7,301 nucleotides of DNA from Victivallales bacterium (GTDB lineage Bacteria; Verrucomicrobiota; Lentisphaeria; Oligosphaerales; Lenti-02). The stretch spans positions 1-7,301 of the forward strand of contig JABGQJ010000388.1 in the NCBI GenBank assembly GCA_018648945.1, read 5' to 3'. Below are positions 1 to 7,301 of this stretch, one piece after another (position 1 is the first letter of the stretch; each line of letters opens with the position of its first letter). Under the pieces are notes generated by a model. The model was not told where the DNA came from. It worked only from the letters and a program-made list of their open reading frames with translations, and did not search any database. The position numbers and the translations under genes were made by a program.

Positions 1-1647
1 TTTGCCAAGCATCGCCCGCCCGCTGAACGGCGGCAGGTCCTCCTTGGTGAACAGCATCTCTGCCATCTTGCCATTCAGATCAAACTGGACGACCCCCTTC
101 GTCCGGTCGATCCCGACGGACAGCACATTCCAGCCCACCCGTTTCAGGCGCAGATCAGGAATGAGATTGTGCTCGGGAGAGTTCAGGAAGGCAAAGGGCT
201 TGACTGCCCCACCACTTGCGTTCAGCCCCACGACGAGCCCGGAGCGCTGGCCAACAGTGCGGGTATCCACCAGGCACCCCATCGCCACCGACCGAAGTTT
301 GGCGCTGACCGTGACCACACCCTCATCCAAGGCCAGCGGCGTGATCGACTGTGCGGACTGGCTCCCCATGAACCGCCAGGCATCCCCCCGGCGCTCTGGT
401 CGAGCGGGCGGGAACTCCCGGGAACGCGGGAACAGGTAGTGCCTGTCCGGTTTCGGCAGCGGGCTAATCCGGGCGACTTTGATCGAGCGGGGCAGGTTTG
501 CCTGGCTGTAGCTGACCAGCAGCTCGTCGCCACGTCGCCAGAACTGCGGATACGCCACCACCGGCTCATGGCCCGTGATCCCCGGACCAGCCACGAAATC
601 CACGCCCTTACCACGGGTGAAGAACAGCGCCAGGTTCCGCCGGTCCTGAACGAACTTCCCGGCTGGGAAGTCGTTGTGAACCATCACCTTCCGGTCGCCA
701 TCCAGGCCGATCACATGCATGCGCGAGGCCACCGTCTCCAAAGGCACAAACCGATGCGGGCTCCAGGTCGCGCCCTTGTCCTTGCTCTCCGAATGGGTGA
801 GCATGGTCGCTGGAGACGCCCCGCCAGCATCGGCGGCACGGAAATCGTTGTTGCGGGCCACCATCAGGACCGTGCCGTCCGCCGCCTCCCAGACCGTCGG
901 TTCCCACTGCGCCCAGCTCTTGCCAGGGATGATGGCACCCGGGGAGCAATGCCAGGTCTTGCCCAAGTCGTCCGTGTAGATCACGCTGTCCCGCTTCTCC
1001 TGTGCCCACCAGTTCGGGAGGTCAGCAGGCGCATCCTTGGCCCTGGAGCCGCTGATCGTCACCGGAGCCAGAATCCGACCGGAGCGCAACCGACACGGGT
1101 TCTGGGTAGGGAACACGCGCCAGTGCACGCCATCGATCAGGGGTTCAGGCCTGCCGTCCCACAGCAGGCGAGTGTTCTCCCACTTGCCATCGGGAGATCT
1201 TAGTCGCGACAGGTAGCACCCCTTGTAGCCATCCCGTGAGTTCTGCGACCAGATTGCCCACAGCTCGCCATCCACCACGATCAGATTGGGCTGCCACTGC
1301 GTTCCCTTCGGGCAGGGAATCGGGTTCTCGCTGCAGGCCGCAGAGGCGAAGACCGGAACCGGCTTTGTCCATGTCTTGCCGTCGGGACTCGTCGCCATGT
1401 AGTTCAGCTGGCCGGGTTTGCTCTCCGCCGGAGCCGTATTGGCGTTCCACAGGCAGAACCAGCGGTCACGGAACCAAGCGACGCTGCTGTCGTGATTGTA
1501 AAGGAGCGGCGAACTGGCGGCATTGACCACGAAGTGTCGCTCGACCTTGGGCTGGTACAGCTCGTACATCCGCCAGTCTCCGGCTTCGGCAGCACGCGTG
1601 GCGACCACGGTAGTTACAAGAAGGGCGCAAGAGACGAGTCGATTCAT
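1..1647 (-). CDS. Exported BNR/Asp-box sialidase-like protein, 3' end beyond window
   Basis: The frame runs 549 codons from ATG at 1647 to the window edge with no stop, so the C-terminus is missing. The start is supported by AAGGA (1655-1659, minus strand) 7 nt upstream and by a signal peptide: MNR, a hydrophobic stretch at residues 4-17, and a probable Ala-x-Ala cleavage near residues 20-22. Three Asp-box-like motifs occur: SPDGKTW (87-93), TDDLGKTW (225-232) and SKDKGATW (288-295). They mark blades of a sialidase-type beta-propeller. A conserved-looking stretch, EPTVWEAADG (from residue 249) leading to Arg265, resembles the 'E-P-x-V-x-E-x-x-DG...R' segment of BNR_2-type sialidase relatives. 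From about residue 420 the sequence changes to alternating hydrophobic strands, which suggests a C-terminal LamG/concanavalin-like beta-sandwich. The likely role is cleavage or binding of terminal sugars on glycoconjugates outside the cytoplasm. The family contains many members not acting on sialic acid, so the substrate is not assigned. The gene is transcribed divergently from the rest of the window. Confidence 0.82.
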   Translation of the reverse strand, partial: MNRLVSCALLVTTVVATRAAEAGDWRMYELYQPKVERHFVVNAASSPLLYNHDSSVAWFRDRWFCLWNANTAPAESKPGQLNYMATSPDGKTWTKPVPVFASAACSENPIPCPKGTQWQPNLIVVDGELWAIWSQNSRDGYKGCYLSRLRSPDGKWENTRLLWDGRPEPLIDGVHWRVFPTQNPCRLRSGRILAPVTISGSRAKDAPADLPNWWAQEKRDSVIYTDDLGKTWHCSPGAIIPGKSWAQWEPTVWEAADGTVLMVARNNDFRAADAGGASPATMLTHSESKDKGATWSPHRFVPLETVASRMHVIGLDGDRKVMVHNDFPAGKFVQDRRNLALFFTRGKGVDFVAGPGITGHEPVVAYPQFWRRGDELLVSYSQANLPRSIKVARISPLPKPDRHYLFPRSREFPPARPERRGDAWRFMGSQSAQSITPLALDEGVVTVSAKLRSVAMGCLVDTRTVGQRSGLVVGLNASGGAVKPFAFLNSPEHNLIPDLRLKRVGWNVLSVGIDRTKGVVQFDLNGKMAEMLFTKEDLPPFSGRAMLGK

Positions 1648-1685
1648 GGTAGAGTCCTTGACGTGGTGGGACAGATCGAGAACTG

Positions 1686-1702
1686 CCGTGTAACGTACAC
1701 GG
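1686..1702. promoter_or_regulatory. Candidate operator: perfect 7-bp inverted repeat
   Basis: The sequence CCGTGTA-ACG-TACACGG has fully complementary 7-bp arms around a 3-bp centre. It sits in the 115-bp gap between divergent starts, 38 bp upstream of the sialidase-like gene (1647) and 60 bp upstream of the oxidoreductase remnant (1763). Size, symmetry and position fit a dimeric transcription factor site (GntR- or LacI-type proteins bind such palindromes). There is no T-run and the stem is short, so a terminator is unlikely. The regulator is not in the window. Confidence 0.45.
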
Positions 1703-1762
1703 TCTGGATGACAATCCCCCATCCCGCGAGCAAGACCCGAAACTCAGCCTGAGGAACGCACC

Positions 1763-1949: not shown

Positions 1950-3548
1950 ATGCCACCACCAAGCAGCGACAAACCAGTTGCCCCCCGTCGCGTGTTGGGT
2001 GACGACGAGTTCACGGACCTCCTCCAGCCACACGTGAGAGGACTGCTGGAGTTGGCCCGCTATGCGGCGGACCGAGAGGCCGAACCCGTCAACCGTCCGT
2101 TCCTGAACTCGGTCCATGCCCGGACCAACCGCGCCATCGAGGTGCTGGACTCCTGCGGGGCGCGGGGGAATCGGAAGTGGTTCCCCTTCCGGGTCCGCCT
2201 TGCCGCGTTGCGCAGCCTCGCGGCGGCAAGCCACGAACTGCTGCATGTCCGGCAAGCCACCCCCGACTACCATCTCCTGGAGGTGGCAGGCGACTTCAGC
2301 AGCGACACCGCACGAGCCGCGCAGTACTTCGACCGCCTGATCCACTGCGTTCTGAGACGGGTCCTGACCGATGCCGACGCCGTTGGCCTGCCACCGGCAG
2401 CGGCAGGCACGATCGATCCGGGACGCTTCGCGGAGAATCCCGCACCTGGTCGGTTGGTCTGGGACCGGGAGGGACGACATGCCCAGTCGCCGGGCGAGCG
2501 CATCGTTTCCCTGGCCACAAAGTACTTGGAAGTGGACGCGGAATCCCGCTTCCTGGACGCCGTATTCAGCAGCGAGGAGAACTGGCAGGAGCTCATCCCG
2601 GAGCCCCTGAGCGAGGAATCGGTTCGGGGCGTCATAGGCAGCTTCCATGACCTCCAGTCCGAGTACGACACCTTCGTCAGCGACAGCGAGGCCGAAGCGC
2701 TGGATACCGACCTCCTGGTTCTGCGCGGCCATGCGAGCCTGGCCCTGCACCTGCTGGAGATCGGTCGCACGCTCACCCACTTCCACGAACGGCATATGGT
2801 CGGCAACAGCGAATCCCTGTTCTGTTGTCGAGATTGCATGCTCTATGAGGACACCTTCCGGTGGGTGCTCTTCACCTACTGCCTGGGCTATGCACGACGC
2901 TTTTCCCAGGCGGCGCTGCCGGTCGCGCATCGCATTGTGCGCCACTACGCGGAGATCGCCGAGATCGAGATCCCCATCCCCCGCTACCGTGGCTTCCATG
3001 TGCGCCCCTCCACCTACGTCTCGCAGATCATCCGGCACTACGGCAGCGAGGCGACCATGGTTCTGGGGGATACCGAGTACAATCCCGGCTCCGCCTTCGA
3101 ACTGTTCCGGGCCAACGAAGAGATCCAGAGAACGAAACGCCAGCAGATCTGCGAGGCAGCAGCCGCCGGACATGCCAACGACCCCCTCGCCCCCGACGCA
3201 GATCCCGAAACCGCGATCCGGCGTATCCTCCTCAGCCTGGTGGCCGAGGGGCGAATCGTGATCCACGGGGCATTGACCTTTGATGCGCTCCCCCTCGCCC
3301 CGGATCGCCCTCTCCCCGACCTCGTCGCTGATGCGGTCTTCCATTTCCTCCGCACCGGTCGCATCGACATCCAGACCGATCTGACCGCTATCTTCCGGGG
3401 AGACAAACGCGTCCTCCACGACATCCAGTTGCTCGCGGATGCCGACTACGGGGAAGACGAACGCGGACGCAACCAGCCCATGCCCCCCGAACTCGACTAT
3501 CTGAAACACACCAAACTACCCCAAACCCAGCGAGACAACGATGCCTAA
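1950..3548 (+). CDS. Large protein with C-terminal HPr-like phosphocarrier domain
   Basis: 532 residues, predicted cytoplasmic: no signal peptide or membrane segment is seen. Residues from about 338 form an HPr-like domain. RGFHVRPST (347-355) matches the HPr active-site loop G-[IL]-H-A-R-P-A-T, giving His350, Arg352 and Pro353. A gap-free stretch then leads to Ser381 in NPGSAFELF. The His350-Ser381 spacing of 31 equals His15-Ser46 in HPr, where Ser46 is the HPr-kinase site. A helix-like segment DPETAIRRILLSLVAEG (418-434) fits HPr helix 3, with an insertion of roughly 13 residues before it. Residues 1-337 are mostly helix-like and unrecognised; they include a Cys cluster CCRDC (292-296). About 95 residues follow the HPr-like part. 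The role is inferred as phosphate acceptance on His350 or a domain repurposed for regulation; the partner is unknown. ATG 1950 is chosen because the upstream in-frame extension to 1797 is low-complexity and overlaps the oxidoreductase remnant; GTG 1911 is possible. The Shine-Dalgarno is weak. It overlaps the next gene by 8 bp. Confidence 0.72.
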   Translation: MPPPSSDKPVAPRRVLGDDEFTDLLQPHVRGLLELARYAADREAEPVNRPFLNSVHARTNRAIEVLDSCGARGNRKWFPFRVRLAALRSLAAASHELLHVRQATPDYHLLEVAGDFSSDTARAAQYFDRLIHCVLRRVLTDADAVGLPPAAAGTIDPGRFAENPAPGRLVWDREGRHAQSPGERIVSLATKYLEVDAESRFLDAVFSSEENWQELIPEPLSEESVRGVIGSFHDLQSEYDTFVSDSEAEALDTDLLVLRGHASLALHLLEIGRTLTHFHERHMVGNSESLFCCRDCMLYEDTFRWVLFTYCLGYARRFSQAALPVAHRIVRHYAEIAEIEIPIPRYRGFHVRPSTYVSQIIRHYGSEATMVLGDTEYNPGSAFELFRANEEIQRTKRQQICEAAAAGHANDPLAPDADPETAIRRILLSLVAEGRIVIHGALTFDALPLAPDRPLPDLVADAVFHFLRTGRIDIQTDLTAIFRGDKRVLHDIQLLADADYGEDERGRNQPMPPELDYLKHTKLPQTQRDNDA

Positions 3549-4500
3549 CGACCGTTGGCGCTCCCTCAAATTCCAGACTCCCGAGTCCCTGCCGGTATCG
3601 GTGAGCATCCTCCCCGCCGCCTGGATCAAGCACCGGGAAGCCATGCAGGAGATCGTGGACCGACACCCCATCCTCTTCGGCAACCCCGTAGAGCGAGACT
3701 TCGATGCCGTCTTTGACGAGAAATACATGATGGGCTCGGTCACCGACGCCTGGGGCTGCGTCTGGGAGAACGTCCACCATGGCATGGCCGCCATCGTCAC
3801 CGGCCACCCCCTGCCCCGGCGCGCGGACGTGCGCACCGCAGAGATGCCCAAAGAGGACATCGGCTTCCCCCACGGCTTCATGTTCCTGCGCCTGACCGAC
3901 CTGCGGGGATTCGAGGAGATGATGATCGACTTCGCGGAGGAGCCCCCGGAACTCCAACAGCTCATCGACCTCGTCCTGCAGTACAACCTGCGCCAAGCCC
4001 GGAATCGCCTGGCGGGTATGGCCGCCGACCCCCAGGTCGTCTACTTCGGGGACGATCTCGGTCTGCAGAACTCCCTGCCCATGAGCCCAACCACTTGGCG
4101 CACGTATCTCAAACCTTGCTTCGCCGCCGTCTACAAGCCCTTCGTGGAAGCCGGGCACACCGTCTACATGCACACCGACGGGCACATCCTGGAGATCATC
4201 CCCGACCTCATCGACTGCGGCGTCAAAGTCGTGAACCCCCAGATCCGCGCCAACGGCCTACAAGGCCTCCGCGACGTGGCCAAGGGCAAGGTCTGCATCA
4301 ATCTCGACCTCGACCGCCAGATGTTCCCCTTCTGCACCCCCGAGGACATCCACAACCAAGTCCTTGAAGCCATCGAGCTGCTTGGCTCCCCCGAGGGCGG
4401 CCTCTGGCTATCCGCCGAAGTCGGCCCCGACGTCCCCCTGGAGAACATCGAAGCCATCTGCACCAGCCTGGAAGAGGCAAGGCGCTGCTACTCCGCATAG
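3541..4500 (+). CDS. Uroporphyrinogen decarboxylase/MtaA-family protein (not haem UroD)
   Basis: 319 residues, cytoplasmic, recognised as a UroD-superfamily TIM barrel. Diagnostic stretches are YFGDDLGLQNSLPMSP (168-183), the helix with TWRTYLKPCF, HTVYMHTDGHI (206-216), the strand VKVVNPQ and the late GGLWLSAEVGPDVPLENI segment. The family includes haem-pathway UroD and cobalamin/corrinoid methyltransferases such as MtaA. The N-terminal Arg-rich RQAGR-type motif of true UroD is absent and the protein is shorter than usual UroD (about 340-360 residues), so a haem role is unlikely. The methyltransferase zinc motif His-x-Cys is replaced by His211-Thr-Asp213, with His215 close by, so metal binding, if any, would differ. 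The start ATG lies inside the end of the HPr-like gene (ATGCCTAA shared) and has only a weak Shine-Dalgarno, pointing to translational coupling. Such divergent UroD paralogues are common beside sugar-catabolic genes in PVC bacteria. The substrate is unknown. Confidence 0.85.
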   Translation: MPNDRWRSLKFQTPESLPVSVSILPAAWIKHREAMQEIVDRHPILFGNPVERDFDAVFDEKYMMGSVTDAWGCVWENVHHGMAAIVTGHPLPRRADVRTAEMPKEDIGFPHGFMFLRLTDLRGFEEMMIDFAEEPPELQQLIDLVLQYNLRQARNRLAGMAADPQVVYFGDDLGLQNSLPMSPTTWRTYLKPCFAAVYKPFVEAGHTVYMHTDGHILEIIPDLIDCGVKVVNPQIRANGLQGLRDVAKGKVCINLDLDRQMFPFCTPEDIHNQVLEAIELLGSPEGGLWLSAEVGPDVPLENIEAICTSLEEARRCYSA

Positions 4501-4659
4501 CCAACAGCTCCCAGTCTGCTCACCACACTCCCACCAGCAATCGCGGCATCACTGGATCTCGCGGTACGATGTACATGGGCACAGCCAAACAGGATTGAGA
4601 GCGGAATCCAATGCGCAGCTGTGACCCCCGTTCCTCTTCGTCGAGCAAAGGGAATAGAG
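4501..4659. other. Intergenic region upstream of the large hydrolase-like gene
   Basis: This 159-bp stretch separates two same-strand genes. No hairpin with a T-run is visible, so no intrinsic terminator can be called for the UroD-family gene, and I see no convincing sigma-70-type promoter. It contains ATGTACAT (4569-4576), a short palindrome, inside a 17-bp stretch (4562-4578) that resembles the operator-like repeat at 1686-1702. AAGGGA (4648-4653) is the likely ribosome binding site of the following gene. Confidence 0.5.
4562..4578 (+). promoter_or_regulatory. Weak second copy of the operator-like motif
   Basis: CGGTACGATGTACATGG matches CCGTGTAACGTACACGG (1686-1702) at 11 of 17 positions; the right half is nearly the same (GTACATGG against GTACACGG). 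It ends 81 bp upstream of the ATG at 4660. The left half is degenerate, so this may be chance. Confidence 0.2.
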
Positions 4660-7301
4660 ATGATGAAACGATGCCTGTCGGTTTTGGCCGCCACTGTCGC
4701 CGCCTTCGCTTTCACCATGGAGTTCGACTCTGGCGGCTTCTCGGTTGAGATCTCGCGTTCGCCGCTCGGGAAACCGTCTCCAGTCGGAAAGAACGTGACG
4801 ATCCGGGCGTTCCCCCATGCGTTCATCGACGACCAGTTCATGCTCAGCCAGGGACAGCCTGGGCTGCTGTTGCTCGGCTTCAGCAATCAGGAAGGCGTCA
4901 AGATCGGCACGCTCACAGCGTTCATCGAGCTGCCGAAAAGCATCGAGCTGCTGGGAGTCGCAGAGGGCCGCAAGCTGATTGGGGAGGAGGCGATGGGCGA
5001 CGTAATCCGGTACGCAATCGACGCCACCCCAACCAAGAGGAGCATCAAGGCCAAAGGCTACAACGTGTTTCAGGCGCTGGTCCTGACACTGCGCACCGCA
5101 GAGGCGCCGGGCACAAGGTCCGCAGCCACCTACTGGCTGACTAACGATGCCTACACGTCGCCCAGACGCTCACTCACGCTCGCCGTGATCCCGCGCATCG
5201 AGGGCGACCGTCCCCGCCGCTTCGAGACCGGGGTCCATTTCACCGCAAATTGCATCGCCCTCTCCGGCGAGGCGCTGGACGAGTACGCGCGCTTCTACGC
5301 GGAGACGGGCTGCAACGCCGCCATGATCTACCCCGGCGCCTTCTCTCAGCGCCTGCGCCAGATGAAGATCGTCCGCTACCACCAGCCCGGTTGGCTCGTC
5401 AACGGCTGCATGATCGGCACCGGCCCGCGCCCGGACAACGTCAAGTTCCAGCTCAAAGACGGCAAGAAGATGAACAACGGCGTCTGCCCCGCCGTCATCT
5501 ACCAGCGCGAGCAACCCTATTTCGACGAACACCTACAGGCACCCCTCCGCAAAATCCTGGTGGAAGATCGGGAGACGGACCACTTCCTCTGCAACTGGGA
5601 ACCCTTCATGTTCGACTTCAAAGGCTGCTTCTGCGACCGCTGCCGCGCGGACTTCGCAACGTATGCCAAGATTGGCCCGGAGAAGGTGGCCGCCGTCTGG
5701 CCAGACCAGGTCGTGGAGGAATACCGCGACGCGTGGATCGACTTCCGCGGCTGGCAGAACGCGCGGCTCGTGAAGACCATCGAGCAGACAGTCAATGCCC
5801 TCGGGCGCGAGATCGGGCGCGATGCCCACTTTGCCCCCGAAGTACACATCAAGTCCATCACCCAACTCTGGAAGGACTCCGCCTCGTTACGCCAGTACGC
5901 CACCATGGCCTACGCGGACAAGATCCCCCTGCTCAACGCCTGGGGGCCCTATCCCTGGCAGACGGTGATGAGGCCATATAATTACGTGCGCGGATACAAC
6001 CTCTCCACACACTGTCTGACCCGGGATTCGGTGGACTACGTTCGGTCCCAGATCCCCGAGAGCAGGCGGCCCCGCCTGCTTGGCTTCCCCCACGGGCTGC
6101 AGGGGAATCTCTGGACCACCGAGCCCGAATCCATGGCCATGGACATCCTCACCTACTTCGTCAACGAGTATGACGGCCAGTTGGTCTACGCCTTCCCCAA
6201 GGGCTACGACGCCCGATACTGGAAGGCACTGGCGGACGCGAATTCCGCCATCGCCGCCTTCGAGGACTTCACGCTTGACGGGACGGCGGACCGTGGGCAT
6301 GAGATCGCTCCAGTCACGCCCTACCCCGCCCCTTCCCCGCGCTTCCTCAAGGCGCCCTGCGGCGGCATCGATGCAAAGAAGTGGGCGGACGCCTCGATGC
6401 TGCAAAGCTGGGAGTACCGTCTCGGCGAGCGCAGAATGGTGGCCGTGGCCAACTACTGGCAACGCGGTGAGTGCTTCGCCACGCTCTCCTTCAAGGATGT
6501 GAAACGCCGGGGGCGCTACCTGCTCCGCGAACCCATGGCCCACCGCGTCTACGGCGCGGAGGACGGCGACACCACGCTCACGGGAAGCGCGCTTCGCGAC
6601 GGTGTCACGGTACACGTGGGCGCGCAACGCTTCGCCTTCTTCCTGCTCGGACCTGCCCGCGAGGCGACGCCCGGCGACACCGTGCTCCGCCCGTCCGCAG
6701 TCGCCGCCGCCAAGGCCGCCCGTCTCCCCGCCATTCAGAAGGCCTTCACGGCCGAGAAAGGGGAGCACGGCATGGCGGACTTCGCCAGGGCGTTCGCCAA
6801 GATCGGGAAACTGAAAAGGGACGGTTTCGAGATCAAGCGTATCAAGAACCGCCAACTCAAGCGTGACACGCTCCTCGTGACGACGAAGACGCAAACGCTG
6901 GACATCGACGTGCTCGGCGGTGGCCGCGTGCGCTCGTGGGTCGTAGCCGGAACCGAACTGGTGAGCGAAGACAAGGCCTGCGGCCTGGCGCTCGACGGCT
7001 TGTGGCACCCCGCCAAGATGCTCACCGCCCCCATGGAGTTCGTCAGGCGTGAAGTGGGGAACGGCGAGGCCCGCCTCGTCCTTCGCCAGCCGTCTGTCAA
7101 CGGTCTCCCTGGGCTGGTGCTTGAGAAGACGCTCGATATCGAGGGGAGAGCGGCGGCGTTCGCCGTGCGCACCGTCATCCGCAACACAGGCGAAGCGCCC
7201 CACGAATTCTCCCATCGCTACCACAACATGCCGGTCTTCCTCGAGTGCAGGGACGACGCGTCGGGCACAGCCACCTTCGGCGGCGCTACACCGGCTACCT
7301 T
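4660..7301 (+). CDS. Large exported glycosidase-like TIM-barrel protein, C-terminus beyond window
   Basis: An uninterrupted frame of 880 codons runs from ATG 4660 off the right edge. A second ATG follows directly at 4663; AAGGGA (4648-4653) can serve either. The signal peptide is MMKR, a hydrophobic run at residues 5-18, and a likely Ala-Phe-Ala cleavage near 17. Residues about 20-185 are beta-rich. Residues about 188-545 look like a glycoside-hydrolase-type TIM barrel: FETGVHFTANC (188-198), then CNWEPFMFDF (311-320) with Glu314 as a candidate acid/base at a strand end, a Cys cluster CFCDRC (323-328) typical of uncharacterised barrel hydrolases from PVC genomes, and FAPEVHIK (391-398) with Glu394 as a second candidate. 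Beyond about 600 there are beta-sandwich-like segments; from about 740 the pattern resembles the sugar-mutarotase/supersandwich fold that follows many hydrolase barrels. The likely role is extracytoplasmic polysaccharide degradation. No known GH family could be assigned by eye, and catalytic residues are inferred from position only. Confidence 0.62.
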   Translation, partial: MMKRCLSVLAATVAAFAFTMEFDSGGFSVEISRSPLGKPSPVGKNVTIRAFPHAFIDDQFMLSQGQPGLLLLGFSNQEGVKIGTLTAFIELPKSIELLGVAEGRKLIGEEAMGDVIRYAIDATPTKRSIKAKGYNVFQALVLTLRTAEAPGTRSAATYWLTNDAYTSPRRSLTLAVIPRIEGDRPRRFETGVHFTANCIALSGEALDEYARFYAETGCNAAMIYPGAFSQRLRQMKIVRYHQPGWLVNGCMIGTGPRPDNVKFQLKDGKKMNNGVCPAVIYQREQPYFDEHLQAPLRKILVEDRETDHFLCNWEPFMFDFKGCFCDRCRADFATYAKIGPEKVAAVWPDQVVEEYRDAWIDFRGWQNARLVKTIEQTVNALGREIGRDAHFAPEVHIKSITQLWKDSASLRQYATMAYADKIPLLNAWGPYPWQTVMRPYNYVRGYNLSTHCLTRDSVDYVRSQIPESRRPRLLGFPHGLQGNLWTTEPESMAMDILTYFVNEYDGQLVYAFPKGYDARYWKALADANSAIAAFEDFTLDGTADRGHEIAPVTPYPAPSPRFLKAPCGGIDAKKWADASMLQSWEYRLGERRMVAVANYWQRGECFATLSFKDVKRRGRYLLREPMAHRVYGAEDGDTTLTGSALRDGVTVHVGAQRFAFFLLGPAREATPGDTVLRPSAVAAAKAARLPAIQKAFTAEKGEHGMADFARAFAKIGKLKRDGFEIKRIKNRQLKRDTLLVTTKTQTLDIDVLGGGRVRSWVVAGTELVSEDKACGLALDGLWHPAKMLTAPMEFVRREVGNGEARLVLRQPSVNGLPGLVLEKTLDIEGRAAAFAVRTVIRNTGEAPHEFSHRYHNMPVFLECRDDASGTATFGGATPAT

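Follow-up and report, generated by a model that had tools for sequence, protein, structure and literature searches.

An HPr domain fused to a conserved helical domain: a candidate output protein of the bacterial phosphotransferase system

A stretch of 7,301 nucleotides from a Victivallales bacterium (GenBank assembly GCA_018648945.1, contig JABGQJ010000388.1; hereafter the window) encodes a 532-residue protein in which HPr, the phosphocarrier of the phosphotransferase system (PTS), is fused to an N-terminal helical domain. The original prediction, made from the letters of the window, had described the protein as being of unknown architecture; instead, it belongs to a recurrent family. Of 7997 candidates scored for similarity, 610 proteins reached E ≤ 0.001, with the best 120 listed, and 325 genome loci were found, from which the best 80 were retained for analysis. 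The HPr part is predicted to adopt the HPr fold, its HxRP active site is conserved throughout the relatives aligned, and the family co-occurs with enzyme I of the PTS. Based on these observations and on the gene neighbours, we propose that the protein carries a second, dedicated HPr within a signalling or metabolic protein, in which His350, fed by enzyme I, would control the helical domain and so couple phosphoenolpyruvate (PEP)/pyruvate to carbon metabolism. We advance this reading tentatively and give it somewhat less than an even chance.

The HPr domain and its active site

The open frame of 532 codons, as well as His350, Arg352, Pro353 and Ser381 within it, lie where the original prediction had placed them (Table 1). 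The codons of His350 (2997-2999) and Arg352 (3003-3005), the latter followed directly by that of Pro353, belong to the motif GFHVRPST. Pfam gave no match to the window protein at E ≤ 1, PTS-HPr (PF00381) included, and the NCBIfam HPr model TIGR01003 matched residues 339-385 with E 7e-4 and 19.5 bits, below its cut-off of 47.9. Among 89 aligned relatives, TIGR01003 matched 88 at E ≤ 0.01 (best 1.1e-7) and Pfam PTS-HPr matched 79 at E ≤ 1 (best 3.4e-5); the Pfam cut-off of 23 was passed by two of five relatives scanned (P0086 with 24.3 and P0127 with 25.4). The predicted structure of the region is that of HPr, an open-faced beta sandwich. With profile matches beyond chance and the expected fold predicted, the assignment of an HPr-like domain was borne out. 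Its extent had to be revised: rather than ending some 95 residues before the C-terminus, the domain spans residues 336 to ~504 and is interrupted by an insertion of ~85 residues in the predicted structure. A winged-helix reading of the insertion, prompted by weak Pfam matches (DUF3253 in 9 of the 89 members, best E 5.5e-4), was rejected because these matches could not be localised, being absent in 10 members scanned.

Table 1. Features of the fusion gene and its neighbours in the window.
Feature	Position	Strand	Basis
Fusion gene, long form (helical domain + HPr), 532 codons	1950..3548	+	Open frame
Helical domain, residues 18-333, two bundles (~18-146, 181-333)	2001..2948	+	AlphaFold2 of residues 1-335, pLDDT 93.6
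HPr part A, residues 336-388: strand 1, active-site loop, helix 1, strands 2-3, start of helix 2	2955..3113	+	Predicted structure
Active-site His350 and Arg352	2997..3005	+	Kept in 241/241 aligned relatives
Ser381 (position of HPr Ser46)	3090..3092	+	Ser in 68 of 121 long forms
Insertion, ~residues 389-475 (approximate boundaries), between HPr helix 2 and strand 4	3114..3374	+	Predicted structure; short-form alignment
HPr part B, ~residues 478-504: strand 4 and helix 3, motif GDxRxLxDIxLL	3381..3461	+	Predicted structure; short-form alignment
URO-D-like gene	3541..4500	+	Pfam PF01208, E 2.5e-9; 8-base overlap with fusion gene
BNR-repeat (sialidase-like) gene, divergent, truncated by window edge	1..1722	-	Pfam PF13088, E 2e-17

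The fused domain shares its predicted fold, its HxRP active site and its order of strands and helices with free HPr (ptsH; PF00381, TIGR01003). It differs from free HPr in sitting behind a helical domain of 335 residues and in the insertion of the long form, and the window protein scores below the curated Pfam and NCBIfam cut-offs.

His350, Arg352 and Pro353 are invariant in 121 long and 120 short relatives, a set of best-scoring matches that is biased to conserved members, and are kept in 19/19 short forms taken from genomes. The conservation proposed earlier as a check for His350 and Arg352 was accordingly found throughout. The same residues bear on the alternative in which enzymatic or sensory function resides in the helical domain and HPr serves it as a mere docking module, having lost phosphorylation. 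Such a module fits with the replacement of Ser381 in 53 of the 121 long forms, with the interruption of the domain by the insertion, and with two genomes that have a short form and no enzyme I match. Pure docking, however, needs no His or Arg at the phosphorylation site, and we consider this alternative quite unlikely.

The helical domain and the two forms of the family

The helical domain contains a set of invariant or near-invariant residues, i.e. N74, H99, H233, S237, Y239-D240-T241, R259, H267, H277, R281 and H282. H99, H233, Y239, D240, T241, H277, R281 and H282 were kept in all 241 aligned relatives, and R259 and H267 in 239. In the 19 genome-derived short forms H99, Y239, D240, R259 and H267 are likewise complete, the exceptions being H277 (16/19), R281 (17/19), and H233, T241 and H282 (18/19 each). 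Such a set of His, Arg, Tyr and Asp would most likely form an active site, or else a binding site for a metal or small anionic ligand. An internal duplication of the two helical bundles was rejected, since they have no profile similarity (probability 0.3%). A possible resemblance of the LRxxH stretch to indoleamine dioxygenases was also considered; no structure of these enzymes was among the structure matches listed.

The conserved histidines also admit a multiphosphoryl-transfer reading, in which the helical domain would be a new, EIIA-like phosphoacceptor domain: one of its histidines (H99, H233, H267, H277 or H282) would receive phosphate from His350 and hand it on to a substrate or partner. 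Several of these histidines are kept in 239-241 of 241 relatives, and HPr is known as one domain of larger fusions, IIA-HPr included (PMC2405797). The multiphosphoryl-transfer proteins (FPr/FruB; IIA-HPr, HPr-EI) are similar in having HPr inside a larger polypeptide, whereas the partner in our fusion is an unrecognised helical domain of two bundles. No IIA, IIB or enzyme I domain was detected in the window protein (Pfam, E ≤ 1) or among 25 of the 34 Pfam families matched by the 89 relatives. Moreover, the conserved His, Arg, Tyr and Asp jointly resemble a binding or active site more than a single phosphoacceptor, and no EIIA structure was found among the best 50 matches of each structure search, which is no proof. 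Altogether, a relay through the helical domain appears unlikely.

Structure searches also raised CHAD (PF05235), a divergent form of which could bind polyphosphate and link it to the PTS. A CHAD-polyphosphate complex (6qva) was the first Foldseek match of the whole model (E 0.064, prob 0.87) and the fourth match of the helical domain alone (E 0.18, prob 0.80). Both domains are helical with conserved histidines, and some carriers belong to Competibacteraceae and Accumulibacter, which store glycogen or polyphosphate. In contrast, TM-scores were low (0.18-0.29, with a root-mean-square deviation near 17), alignment of two N-terminal alignments with nine CHAD domains by hhalign gave a probability of 0.2%, and the window protein is without any Pfam match at E ≤ 1. 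CHAD homology was therefore rejected as a Foldseek hint that lacks profile support, and polyphosphate binding by a CHAD-like domain is very improbable.

A profile of the helical domain retrieved 441 proteins among 7996 candidates. Many of the best 120 carry Pfam PTS-HPr, and no bare helical domain without HPr was seen among these 120 (lengths 433-558 residues). Two relatives of the window protein, P0002 and P0003, have 532 residues each and are 98% and 86% identical to it. Overall, the family is spread over Planctomycetota, Lentisphaerota, Spirochaetota and some Proteobacteria; no match was found on plasmids. Of 41 genomes, 39 encode one copy of the fusion, and G016 and G023 encode two.

When 148 Planctomycetota genomes were searched with the family profile, 40 had a match: 7 with the full-length form, 28 with a short form, and 5 with a short match to the HPr part only. 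In the 28 short-form genomes, whose matching frames span 412-551 residues (718 in one case), the match comprises the N-terminal domain and HPr up to approximately profile position 382, and in five of them the last 40 profile positions match separately, a few codons beyond helix 2. We further inspected 20 Planctomycetota loci (L094-L113), one with a long form and the other 19 drawn from the 28 with short forms. The short forms have the same N-terminal domain and, in 19/19 aligned, an HPr without the insertion; their active-site loop mostly reads LHARP. In a gene tree of 144 sequences, composed of the loci and of database proteins sampled at random (25 out of 121 and 25 out of 120), the 44 short forms fell into a single clade with support 1.0, which indicates a single event, either a gain of the insertion or, less likely, its loss.

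Partner proteins in carrier genomes and the position of Ser381

To the original prediction, no enzyme I was visible. This holds for the window and is an effect of its size: in 36 carrier genomes, hand-picked from the 80 loci for spread, enzyme I was present in 35, a separate strong HPr match in 35, and EIIA_2 in all 36. PTS_EIIC (PF02378), the one permease family tested, was found in 8 of these genomes and had no match in 28. In G024, EIIA, HPr and enzyme I are encoded consecutively on one contig. In a Lentisphaerae locus (L003), a gene that encodes the full set of three enzyme I domains starts ~390 bases downstream of the fusion gene on the same strand; it was recognised by Pfam and missed by a sequence motif for enzyme I. 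Motifs tried for enzyme I, pyruvate kinase and other proteins gave no hits at the loci. Among the 148 Planctomycetota genomes, 146 have enzyme I and 147 an HPr match.

This combination resembles the regulatory PTS (EI-NPr-EIIANtr; EI group R), as the carriers have enzyme I, HPr and EIIA_2, and 28/36 are without PF02378. The outputs of PTSNtr act via a separate protein, EIIANtr; the fusion, by comparison, supplies an extra HPr that brings along a domain of its own.

Both phosphorylation positions of HPr had been thought to be kept. This fails in the long-form subfamily for Ser381 (Table 1); the short forms have Ser at the Ser46 position, as free HPr does, in 120/120 high-scoring and 18/19 genome-derived sequences. 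Control of the protein by HPr kinase (HprK) through phosphorylation of Ser381, as in Firmicutes, could account for the serine in the window protein, in these long forms and in the short forms. HprK was above cut-off in 17 of the 36 carrier genomes, which by their record titles are Spirochaetes and Proteobacteria plus L008 (labelled Phycisphaerales), with a weak partial match in G004. However, residue 381 is Ser/Thr at 6/16 loci with HprK and at 10/17 without, a comparison that covers 33 of the 36 loci and leaves out three without a picked fusion gene. G001, which contains the locus closest to the window (L001), gave no match to the kinase, and none of the 28 short-form genomes had HprK above cut-off, three giving weak partial matches. 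Since Ser/Thr is no commoner where the kinase is present and the short-form genomes are without above-cut-off HprK, Ser381 is not explained by HPr kinase, and regulation of this type is highly unlikely. The short forms may retain the serine for structural reasons or as the site of a different kinase. Crh, an HPr paralogue, has Ser46 and no active His; the fusion shows the opposite pattern, with the His kept and the Ser variable.

Gene neighbours and the proposed role of the fusion

Gene contexts of the fusion are diverse at the 74 loci tabulated (L001, L002, L016, L041, L047 and L064 are outside the table because the fusion gene was not picked). We tallied Pfam families for up to three genes per side, of at least 140 residues and one per cluster (230 of 231 pieces, L079:14622-15293 being omitted), and no family dominated among the 25 most frequent ones listed out of 127 and 157. 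Phosphofructokinase (PFK) was detected by tblastn in the fetched stretch of 12 of the 80 loci, 11 of them also by gene picking and L041 by tblastn only. It is the convergent next gene in L008, L015, L018, L025, L065 and L072 (with one small frame between in L025), the co-directional next gene in L066, the divergent next gene in L048, L053 and L069, and three genes off in L050. The three PFK groups are ~23-31% identical to each other (longer alignments among those listed). L066 shares thiolase and ATPase neighbours with L065, but its PFK is of a different kind and lies in the opposite orientation. By genome coordinates, PFK lay within 2 kb of the fusion in 6 of the 36 genomes, compared with 0.17 expected. 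Enolase is encoded directly upstream in L057 and PEP carboxykinase two genes upstream in L066 (both named by motif), and both families are also among the Pfam neighbour matches. In E. coli, HPr binds PfkB and PykF (PMC8167557).

In the mechanism that we propose, enzyme I, once phosphorylated by PEP, would act on His350 in the same manner as on free HPr and transfer its phosphate, and the state of His350 would set the activity of the helical domain or its binding to a partner. We infer this phosphorylation of the fused HPr, as well as the control of the helical domain, its ligand site and the glycolytic target. The PEP/pyruvate balance could in this way be coupled to central carbon metabolism, for which PFK would be the best-placed target, and in the host bacteria the PTS may serve regulation more than sugar import. 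A wider proposal takes the family as a class of PTS output proteins, in which HPr and a helical enzyme or ligand domain form a transport-free PEP sensor that acts on glycolysis, at PFK, across Planctomycetota, Lentisphaerota, Spirochaetota and some Proteobacteria, with the short form being ancestral and the insertion gained once; in this breadth we regard it as doubtful.

Several results weigh against the proposed role. The proximity of PFK comes from two clades only, Competibacteraceae-like and Spirochaetales, and therefore has a chance value of ~0.014, uncorrected for the many neighbours examined. PFK was not found in the fetched stretch of 68 of the 80 loci, nor in any of the 20 Planctomycetota loci (19 short forms, one long), and the window has no recognised glycolytic gene. 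Co-occurrence with enzyme I says little in Planctomycetota because nearly all of their genomes encode it, and enzyme I of the type seen in L003 had no match in the other 79 loci, so that adjacency is limited to 1/80. In two genomes with a short form, G064 and G103, enzyme I was not matched and HPr was matched only weakly, at the strength that the fusion itself gives; they may be incomplete, or the fusion may work there without a relay. Helix 2 of HPr is part of the enzyme I docking surface, and docking might be changed or blocked since the insertion lies just past this helix. Finally, searches for a ligand or homologue of the helical domain found none.

The original prediction had tied the fusion to the neighbouring enzyme, which is upheld in the closest locus and fails beyond it. 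In L001 (Victivallales), the fusion protein is 71% identical to that of the window, the URO-D-like protein is 79% identical, its gene starting (9618) 16 bases past the fusion gene, and the BNR gene (68% identical) lies upstream of the fusion gene as in the window. The URO-D-like protein had distant matches (26-32%) within the fetched stretch in L006, L016 and L062 and none in the remaining loci of the 80, and the BNR protein had no match among the 80 outside L001. As other loci are without it, the BNR/fusion/URO-D arrangement is local to the close kin of the window and no trait of the family.

Some further observations concern the neighbourhoods. In the window, a plus-strand frame at 1763-1852 opens like a Gfo/Idh/MocA oxidoreductase by eye (MPRKKVAIIGTGGRS...) and stops after ~30 codons; it looks like a remnant between the divergent genes. 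A large plus-strand frame at 4621-7301 runs off the end of the window (880 residues when read from 4660) and had no Pfam match at E ≤ 1. In L010, L012, L014, L030, L073 and others (Sedimentisphaerales and relatives), genes for a LysR-type regulator, a HAD-like phosphatase and a lipoprotein-like product precede the fusion in one orientation, as judged by eye. Likewise by eye, 10 of the 20 Planctomycetota loci have a metallophosphoesterase-like gene and 14 a ParB-like gene. The PFK beside the fusion in L008 (labelled Phycisphaerales) and L025 (Synechococcaceae) is 77-85% identical to those of Competibacteraceae; given this closeness (78-83% for L008), both contigs are probably misbinned.

To our knowledge, the targets of the phosphorylation chain are largely open in bacteria that have enzyme I, HPr and EIIA but no PTS transporters. 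Because its output domain is in the same protein, the mostly single-copy fusion would offer a direct handle on such a transporter-less PTS. While HPr fusions are already known, our literature searches found, among the papers listed, no description of one between HPr and this helical domain, and a helical output domain together with a spread over several phyla makes the family more than a routine addition to them. One relative with a short form (P0127) is listed under Engelhardtia mirabilis, a named species, and its record carries no label as a metagenome-assembled genome, such that the idea may be testable in a strain. If correct, the fusion may link the energy state of the cell to its metabolism in a new way.
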